Below are positions 4,162 through 8,183 of a stretch of DNA of 64,000 nucleotides, one piece after another (the stretch's first letter is position 1; each line of letters opens with the position of its first letter). Made by a program: the position numbers and the translations under genes. The stretch is taken from assembly GCF_964020195.1 (NCBI RefSeq), contig NZ_OZ026539.1:438299-502298 (forward strand), in the 5' to 3' direction. Source of the stretch: Spiroplasma endosymbiont of Lasioglossum villosulum. GTDB taxonomy: Bacteria; Bacillota_I; Bacilli_A; Mycoplasmatales; VBWQ01. Below the pieces are notes generated by a model. That model saw nothing but the letters and a program-made list of their open reading frames with translations. It did not search any database and was not told the DNA's origin.

Positions 4162-5611
4162 ATGGCAGATTCAAAAGATTATTTAGACAAAAATGTAGAA
4201 GAAAACATTAAGTTTATTAGTTCAAAAATAATTGAAAAGAAAACAATATTATTTTTAGGAGCAGGTTTTTCTGCAAATTTTGGTTTTCCTTTATGAAAAG
4301 AATTATTAATTTCTATTATTGAAAAAAAAGAGAATGAATTTCAAGATTTAGATGGTTATTATAAAAAAGAACTTAAGAATTTGAAGAGTATGGTTTAAAA
4401 TAACTTTGATCTTTCAAAAGTTTTGGATAATTTAAAAAGTTTATTAGATACAAAAGAGAAAAAAGACAGTGCAAGTGCTTTTTTTTATAGAAGAATATAG
4501 TAGTAAACTTGATATAGAAAAAAAGGAAATTGATAGTGAAAAAAAAGAAATTTTAGAATTAATAAATAATAATTTTGATAAAATAATTACTACAAATTAT
4601 GATAATATTTTTGCTTGAAATAAATTAGAAAATCCTAAACAATATATAAAAAATTGAATTAATAGTATTGAAGAATTAAATGATAAAGTATATCCAATTC
4701 ATTGTTCAATAACTGGAATTAATGAAAAATCAAATGAAACAAGTGAACATAAAGTTAATAATTTGAATAAAAAAGGTAAAAAAATAGAATTTATAGATAC
4801 TTATAAAAGTTTTATTGAGAATTGAATTATTGAAAATTTTACAGAATCATTTAAAAAAATAATAGAAGATGCAGTAAATCAAAATTATACATTTATTTTT
4901 TTAGGTTATAGTTTTGAAGATCAGTTTGTAGCCAATAGTTTGGCGACTTTTATTTTAGAAAAAGCAAAAGTTAAAACATGAGAGAATGAAAATTTTGTTG
5001 TATTATTTAATGACTATGAAAAACAAAAAAATAAATGTGATTGTTGTGATAAGTGTAAAGTTAATGTTCCAGTGGTATTGTCCACTAAATACGTTAAATG
5101 TGACAAGAAGCCACCATTAGATTCTAAACTTTATGGAATAAAGTATATTGAATTTAGTAAGATTTTTAATAGTGAAGAATGTATAAATTTATTTGAAGTT
5201 ATTAAAAAATTTTTAAATTATATTAAAGAATATGCAAACATATATGATTTATTAAATGAAATAGATTTAGTTTTTAATCATGAAGTTATTAATGAATCAA
5301 AAAACTTTAATTTTGAAGAGTATTTTAAATCAGACAAAATTAATACTAAATTTGAAAATAAACAAGAATTATTATTCATTATAGATTTTTTTGGAAAAAA
5401 ATATGATCTTTTAAATTCTAAGATTACTTATAAAGAAAAGTATATTGATGGCATTTTAAATAATTTATTTGACTGATTATATAAAAATAAAGAAATTTCT
5501 CTTTCACAAGATATAGTACAGTTTTTAGGGAAATCTAAGTTATATATAAAATTACTTAAATGAAGGATTAATGATAAAGAAATTAGAAAATGGTTAGGAG
5601 AATTTGTTTAA
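4162..5611 (+). pseudogene. SIR2-domain (SIR2_2) protein, interrupted by a stop and a one-base shift
   Basis: Starting at ATG 4162 the protein has the NAD-binding loop LGAGFSANFGFPLWKELL of the SIR2_2 family. An in-frame TAA follows at 4396, then a frame change at a T8 run (4479-4486). In the shifted frame the domain continues with TTNYDNIF, a His motif (PIHCS) and FLGYSFEDQF, all classic SIR2_2 motifs, then a Cys cluster (CDCCDKC), and ends at TAA 5609-5611. With seven Ts the frames join into about 482 residues, apart from the TAA. SIR2 proteins of this type are NADases in anti-phage systems (DSR, Thoeris ThsA, SIR2-HerA); the defence role here is inference. It is closely coupled to the next gene. 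It may be a pseudogene, or phase-variable at the T8. Confidence 0.8.
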
Positions 5612-5612
5612 A

Positions 5613-8183
5613 ATGTTTGATGTTATAAGTGATGATAAAAATACTAATTTTATGTTATATATAAATGAATTATATTATCTTAGGGAATTTAATGAAATTG
5701 AATTAAAAATTAAAAATGTAATTTCTAAAATAAAACTTGCTGAAAATATTTTTTCTTCTACAGTTAAAGAATATTCAAATACTTCTTTACTATATTGTTG
5801 TTATATTTCTTATTGTATTTTCAAAGAAAACAAAAGTAATACTTCTTTAAACAATTTTTATAAAATATATACTTATTTATTACTTTGTGAACTAAGAACA
5901 GATGTGATATATGATGATAGAAATGCTATTATTTTATTAAGTATTAAAGAAAATTTAGAATTTAAAAGAAGTAATGATTTTATATATTTTGAAATTAAAA
6001 ATAAAAATATTGATATTAAAAATTTGAAAGAATATATTTTATCTGGTGATTTTTTAAAAATTAATAATTATTTAAATTATTGAATTAAAGAAGAAGAAAA
6101 TAACTTATTTGTAAAAAAATGAAATAAAAATTTTAGAAAATGACCATTAAAAAATAACTTTATAATAATTAATTTATATTATATATATTTAAGTTGAAAA
6201 GATAATGAAATTAATTTAATAAAAAATAATTTATTAAATTTAGATTGAAATGACTATTTGCCATATAGTCCTCTTATGTATAAATTATTTTTAATAGCAT
6301 TTGCAATAGATTTAAAAAATAATCCAAATTCAGATACTTTTTTTAAGCTGTTAAATAATAAAAACTTTTTGTTAAATGTTGAAAGTGATTATGCAATATT
6401 TAGATTAGGTGATGATTTTGTATTTTTAGGAGCATCTTTTTTAGATACAATAGAATTTGAAAAAATTATTTTAATTGATTATGAGTATATTAAATTAAAT
6501 TTTCCAATTGAAAAGCAAGAAGAATATTTAAAATACAGAATACCATATTTTAAAAAAATATATGAACATATTTGAAAAGAAGTTATTTTTAATTATACTT
6601 TTAAAGAGTTTGATGATGCAATAAACAAAAAAAATAAAGAAGATGAAGAAAAATTAAAATTAGTTCCTAGTAAACATTATTGAGATGATGATGTTAATGA
6701 AAATGTTGGAGCAATAGTTAGAACTTGAACAGATTATAATCAGATTGGTACAAAAGAAAGTAATTTTATCTCATTTTCAATAAAACAAAAAAGTGAATAT
6801 ATTAAAAATTATTTATTAGATGAAATGTCAAATGAAAATGGTTCCTTAAAAAGTTTAATTTCAGTAATAGAAATAGATAATAATAAAACTGAATTAATTA
6901 ATAACTTTAAAAAAATAAGAAATTCAAAAAAACAAGATAATATTTTAAAAATTAAGACAGATTATATTTTAAATTATTTTAAGTATTTAGATAAAAGAAA
7001 AGAATTAAATCAACATTTAATTTATTTTGAAAATATTAATTTTTCTAAAGAAAATTATGAAAAAGAATTGGAAAAGATAAAAAGTTTAATTTTAAAATGT
7101 TTTGATTCTAATATGAAAAAATTTTATTTTTTATTTATTGATGATCCTTTAAATAGTTTTCAAACTAAAATCTGTAATTTTTATATTCACTGTTTGAATA
7201 ATAGAAAAATAGATATATTTGATAAGTTTTATTTAGAAATCAAAGATAAAATGATAATTAGTTATAACCAGTTATATAAAATAATTAAATATTATTCAAA
7301 AGGAACATGAAATAGGGAATATATATTTTTTCGTTTAGTTTCTTTATTCATTGATCCAAATGTTTTAAAAAAAGAATCATATTTTAATATTAAATTTATT
7401 GCAAATTATATTGAAAATTATCTTTTTCTTAAAAAAAATAAATGAGATATTACCAAAATTATTTTATTAGATGATTATACACATGTTATTTGAATCATAT
7501 ATATGTTATATAATCATAATAATTTTTATTCGGCATATAAAGATTTTGAAGAGATATTTTTTTCAAAAATAAAAATAGATAATATTGATAATTATTTCAA
7601 TGATTTAGTTATAAAATCATTAAATATTGAAAGTCCATCAATTGGTACAGGAGTTACATATATGTATCAATTTAATACTAAAATTACTTGCACTTTTAAT
7701 TTATTAATTCATTATATACTTAATTCACAAAATGAAAATAATCTTTTTGAGTTAATAAAAAGTAAAGTAGATAGTATTGTATTTGAAAAAAATATATTAG
7801 TAGATATTTTATATAATTTATTTGATTTGTATTATTGTATAAATTTTGAAGAAAAAAGTAAAAAAAGAATCATTAATCTTTTAAAATATATTCAAAATGA
7901 AATCAAAGTTAATAAAATAACAAATTCTTCATTAAAATCAACAATATCTTTTTCTAATGAAGAAATTAAAATAATGAAAAATAAAAATGCTGTTGATTAT
8001 TATTTAAAAATTGGTGAAAGTAGAATGTATTATAAAAGATTATATTGAGTAATACAGTGTCATTTAAGTCAATACGATGATAATTTAATAGTAAAAAGTC
8101 AGTATATAAACCTAATTGCATCAGATAAATCGGCTATTGGTAATTTAATAACACGTTATAGAAAAGATTTAAAGAAATTTTAA
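5613..8183 (+). CDS. Large protein of unknown function paired with the SIR2 gene
   Basis: One uninterrupted frame of 856 residues with TGA as Trp. The ATG at 5613 follows TAGGAG (5595-5600), which lies inside the end of the SIR2 gene. This overlap of ribosome site and stop suggests translational coupling; TTG 5604 is an alternative start. The protein is rich in Ile, Asn, Lys and Phe and mostly helical in appearance, with no signal peptide and no P-loop or nuclease motif that I can find. It ends at a strong terminator. In known SIR2 systems the second part senses phage or controls the NADase, so this could be the sensor or regulator, but that is a guess from context. Alternatively both frames were once one ~1340-residue SIR2 protein. 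Confidence 0.75.

Follow-up and report, generated by a model that had tools for sequence, protein, structure and literature searches.

Bacterial proteins with a SIR2_2 domain that have been studied to date (ThsA, DSR1 and DSR2) are anti-phage NADases (PMC12700824). DSR2 has its SIR2 domain at residues 1–303, followed by a helical part (residues 304–1005) that binds the phage tail tube protein, which releases the NADase (PMC10973363). Here, we analysed a 64,000-nucleotide (nt) window from the Spiroplasma endosymbiont of Lasioglossum villosulum (contig NZ_OZ026539.1), in which a SIR2_2 gene is followed by a gene for an 856-residue partner protein; all positions are those of the window, and reading frames were taken under code 4. 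We hold it probable, at roughly 0.68, that this locus is what remains of a DSR-like defence system with a SIR2 NADase.

Comparison with described SIR2 systems

The SIR2 gene (4162–5611, forward strand) encodes ~482 residues on read-through, and these match Pfam SIR2_2 with an E value of 1.4e-10. The motifs GAGFS, TTNYD, PIH and GYSF can be read from the sequence. A reading of this DNA made earlier from sequence only had credited the gene with the full SIR2_2 motif set; GAGFS, TTNYD, GYSF and the domain match stand, but the histidine motif is PIHC instead of the usual PIHG, and the gene is broken. At this position (4698–4706), PIHC is also found in a genome of the same species (G004), and PIHG in a congener (G008) and in Mycoplasma sp. 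SG1. PADLOC matches of the read-through were weak (LmuA, 4e-9; SIR2, 1e-7; ThsA, 2e-4), with a match to ThsA models (E 1.5e-6) over its first 55 residues. The KomC NADase is a further weak match, which we count in favour of a defence role.

The partner gene (5613–8183, forward strand) starts at the ATG at 5613, ends with a stop at 8183 and is uninterrupted. That it is long and open, and that its product shows no P-loop, TIR, pAgo or HerA motif, is borne out: the protein had no trusted-score match in Pfam, PADLOC, NCBIfam or PHROG, and no match in viral, genome, plasmid and phage collections or among solved structures. Two sub-threshold candidates were discarded, a class-level match in G206 (E 0.003), which is spurious and involves an unrelated membrane protein, and a Pfam Acb1 match (E 0.003, below the cut-off), put down to chance. 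DUF4020 was not found as a C-terminal domain, but control genomes were equally without a match, so this result is uninformative. Structure prediction, which had been proposed for this protein, was run with AlphaFold2 and returned nearly all-helical, low-confidence models whose mean predicted local distance difference test scores (37 with no alignment, 39 with a two-row alignment) are too low to use.

The locus shares with DSR1 and DSR2 an N-terminal SIR2_2 domain bearing the GAG, N/D and H motifs, followed by about 700–950 residues, helical in DSR2. Total lengths are comparable, the PADLOC Dsr1 models having 1227–1275 positions, the Dsr2 model 1222 and Bacillus subtilis DSR2 ~1005 residues. 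It differs in that the window has two genes with a broken effector, while SG1 has a single chain of 1330 amino acids (aa). The lack of fit to Thoeris, SIR2-HerA and SIR2-pAgo proposed from the sequence was confirmed, all of them failing on the partner, as does Lamassu. The SIR2_2 domain and the N-terminal ThsA match recall Thoeris, but no SLOG or TIR (ThsB) match was obtained for the locus in library scans. SIR2-HerA, PD-T7-2 and Nezha are likewise two-gene SIR2 systems, whereas the partner here matched neither HerA nor any other ATPase, and low-confidence models make it helical. No pAgo or APAZ match, as would be expected of SIR2-pAgo (SPARSA), was found in Pfam or PADLOC. The LmuA match (E 4e-9) is shared with Lamassu systems that have a SIR2-type LmuA; however, the partner has no SMC-like LmuB match in Pfam or PADLOC. 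A Lamassu built with the adjoining smc was also rejected, this upstream gene being a housekeeping smc, kept in a sister genus at about 72–80% identity.

The combination of a SIR2 domain with ~850 mostly helical residues (in low-confidence models), as in DSR2, suggests by analogy the same logic of restraint, sensing and NAD+ destruction. The SIR2 gene would supply the N-terminal SIR2_2 NADase, an activity predicted from its domain, and the partner would act as the long helical C-terminal part, holding the NADase off and sensing a phage component. Sensing of that component would trigger NAD+ hydrolysis and growth arrest of the infected cell. The window has two coupled genes, as do two other Mollicutes in form, and their products would act as a complex; in SG1 both parts lie in a single 1330-residue chain. 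From these likenesses we infer that the SIR2 part is an NADase, that the helical part is the sensor and that the outcome is abortive infection in defence against phage; the gene pair is probably an anti-phage suicide system.

A single-chain orthologue and the two-gene question

A SIR2_2 scan of 320 genomes of the order identified Mycoplasma sp. SG1 (G403, NZ_CP076852.1), in which both window genes have their colinear counterpart in a single uninterrupted protein of 1330 residues. Residues 15–473 of the SIR2 part align to SG1 residues 25–470 (28% identity, E 4e-25), and residues 137–790 of the partner align to 622–1254 (25% identity, E 2e-12), with no block missing or extra at the junction. Smith-Waterman scores against shuffled sequences gave z 16 for the SIR2 half and z 15 for the partner. 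The SG1 catalytic motifs, by reading, are GAGFS, INYD and PIHG. At 247 nt from the SG1 gene lie a Bsp6I-type restriction endonuclease and a C5 methylase, and beyond this pair an EcoRI-methylase-like gene and an HNH nuclease, a neighbourhood that is defence-like. The partner, described earlier as unrecognised, does lack a family match, but the case for its independence is weakened because the SG1 protein contains it as its C-terminal two thirds.

These data make the idea of a DSR-like system split in two the best-supported reading of the sequence, the continuous SG1 orthologue beside restriction-modification genes speaking for it and the absence of a Dsr1 or Dsr2 model match against it. Several observations weigh on the other side. 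The PADLOC Dsr1 and Dsr2 models matched neither the partner nor the SIR2 read-through up to E 10, nor the SG1 protein up to E 1, and neither the partner nor the SG1 protein had a sequence match to DSR2 in the PDB. The same Dsr1 and Dsr2 models respond to other SIR2 proteins, and a control query finds the PDB DSR2 at 3.8e-37. Because the models and structures went unmatched while a control SIR2 protein finds both, we do not class the locus as DSR, though its mode of action looks similar. An orthologue forming one continuous chain of ~1340 residues from a known DSR family had been named as grounds for abandoning a new system; SG1 provides the continuous chain, but not the known family. Furthermore, SG1 provides the sole orthologue, so its restriction-modification neighbourhood is a single case; as query, the SG1 protein matched 3 of the 320 genomes (SG1, the window genome and G004). 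Defence genes do not neighbour the window locus, and the structure models of the partner contribute nothing usable.

Whether the window locus was ever a two-gene system turns on the gene boundary. The SIR2 stop (5609–5611) is separated by 1 nt from the partner ATG, and an AGGAG within the SIR2 gene (5596–5600), a possible ribosome site, precedes this ATG by 12 nt, in agreement with the sequence-only reading. This spacing falls just outside that of the ribosome motifs at other starts in the window (1–11 nt; 6–11 nt for AGGAG sites). Intact pairs in the same order were found in two other Mollicutes, G535 (529+879 residues) and G252 (540+867), compared with 482+856 in the window, and the gene boundary lies at a similar position in all three. 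Their SIR2 halves are related to that of the window (E 6e-11 and 3e-10), and a relation is also seen between their two partners (z 7.9 against shuffles). No link between the G535 and G252 partners and the window partner was found by hidden Markov models or hhalign (E 0.3–0.4), nor to the window or SG1 partner by shuffles (z 1.0 or less), and they had no Pfam or PADLOC match.

One alternative is that the ancestor here was a single gene of ~1338 codons, as in SG1, and that the boundary at 5609–5613 is a third frameshift of a dying gene that never was a two-gene system. The single SG1 chain, to which the junction adds no residues, and the two lesions already present within 1.45 kb of a locus under neutral drift are consistent with this. 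However, the break falls where a stop, an ATG one base on and an AGGAG 12 nt upstream coincide, and near the boundary of two intact pairs; moreover, only 2 of the 83 sense-strand ATGs of the locus, the partner's included, have a ribosome-site-like motif of at least 4 bases 5–16 nt upstream. We regard a single-gene ancestor as unlikely, though it is the strongest of the alternatives. Since the boundary position is similar in three pairs and stop, ATG and AGGAG coincide, a real two-gene form is favoured over a third frameshift by about three to one, a preference limited by the 12-nt spacing.

It is rather improbable that the pair represents a new two-component SIR2 system, its partner being a stand-alone activator like HerA or pAgo and not a DSR-like C-terminal domain. 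G535 and G252, whose intact pairs are similar in size and have mutually related partners unfamiliar to Pfam and PADLOC, would suit such a system, but the C-terminal part of the SG1 single chain is homologous to the window partner, which has no detectable relation to the partners in G535 and G252.

Decay and genomic setting of the window locus

In the window, the locus is pseudogenised, either dead or dying. The SIR2 reading frame is in two pieces (4162–4398 and 4469–5611), broken by an in-frame TAA at 4396–4398 and by a frame change near 4479, at a homopolymer run (4472–4479), which prevents synthesis of a complete SIR2 protein. In G004 and G008, fragments of the gene lie at the corresponding place 3' of smc, with 90–99% identity, and both relatives lack the window stop and the window frame change. 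They carry damage of their own: G004 has a frame change, an insertion inside the SIR2 gene and loss of most of the partner except its end, and G008 has several insertions. Codon changes among the strains comprise 9 synonymous and ~42 nonsynonymous ones, a synonymous share of ~17% that equals the share of synonymous sites (~17% of all), as expected of neutral drift. The open partner frame is weak evidence of use, because few lesions are expected at ~1% divergence. The earlier suggestion of an anti-phage system is backed by the SIR2_2 domain and the SG1 neighbours, but given the state of the window copy, this function can hold only for intact relatives. In the partner-end remnant of G004 (L025), 7 codons, 6 of them nonsynonymous, differ from the window within ~45 nt (8067–8111), after which the sequences are identical; this segment could be recombined or fast-changing.

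The pair had been described as a unit between two terminators. Folding yields a terminator-like hairpin 3' of smc (4091–4118, forward strand; −10.6 kcal/mol, z −3.8) and a bidirectional one at the end of the partner gene (8180–8213; −16.6 kcal/mol, z −6.6), conserved in G004, but a consensus terminator scan lists neither, and both hairpins rest on folding alone.

The gap between smc and a conserved membrane-protein/dnaJ block is a variable spot. It holds the SIR2 pair and two secreted proteins in the window, SIR2 pieces and transposases in G008, and phage-like genes (including, by reading, a zot-like ATPase) with a transposase in G006 (L027:2003–8360). The site after smc is an insertion hotspot, which suits a defence locus gained and later lost. 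That the locus once encoded a SIR2 protein acting outside defence (in NAD metabolism or deacetylation) and has since lost it is the least probable alternative: the absence of adjoining defence genes would fit it, but the studied bacterial SIR2_2 members are anti-phage NADases (PMC12700824), the distribution is patchy (3/320 genomes), the SG1 gene has restriction-modification neighbours and the site after smc is insertion-prone.

SIR2 proteins in other Mollicutes

We see an even chance that these loci form an undescribed Mollicute clade of SIR2 defence systems, missing from present-day catalogues of defence, that make an NADase and a ~860-residue helical regulator either in a single chain (SG1) or separately, with translational coupling of the two (window, G535 and G252). 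Defence systems are poorly catalogued in wall-less, code-4 bacteria, and a DSR-like protein in one- and two-chain forms would make it possible to ask whether the effector has to be covalently joined to the sensor; the window copy itself is a fossil only. Single SIR2 proteins of 1061 aa (L059:3637–6822), 974 aa (L060:3071–5995) and 1134 aa (L061:3724–7128) were observed in three other Mollicutes and are possibly further DSR-like proteins. Like the SG1 protein, these long proteins match no PADLOC model.

Another congener, G007, has two ThsA genes encoding 467 aa (L029:802–2205, reverse strand, and L053:1180–2583, forward strand), with a PADLOC E value of 2e-128 for the first; congeners therefore do carry SIR2 defence. 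The first of these genes is adjoined by an open reading frame of 231 aa that is possibly TIR-like. Elsewhere in the window (50377–63681), open reading frames resemble a prophage or phage-derived block by order and sequence.
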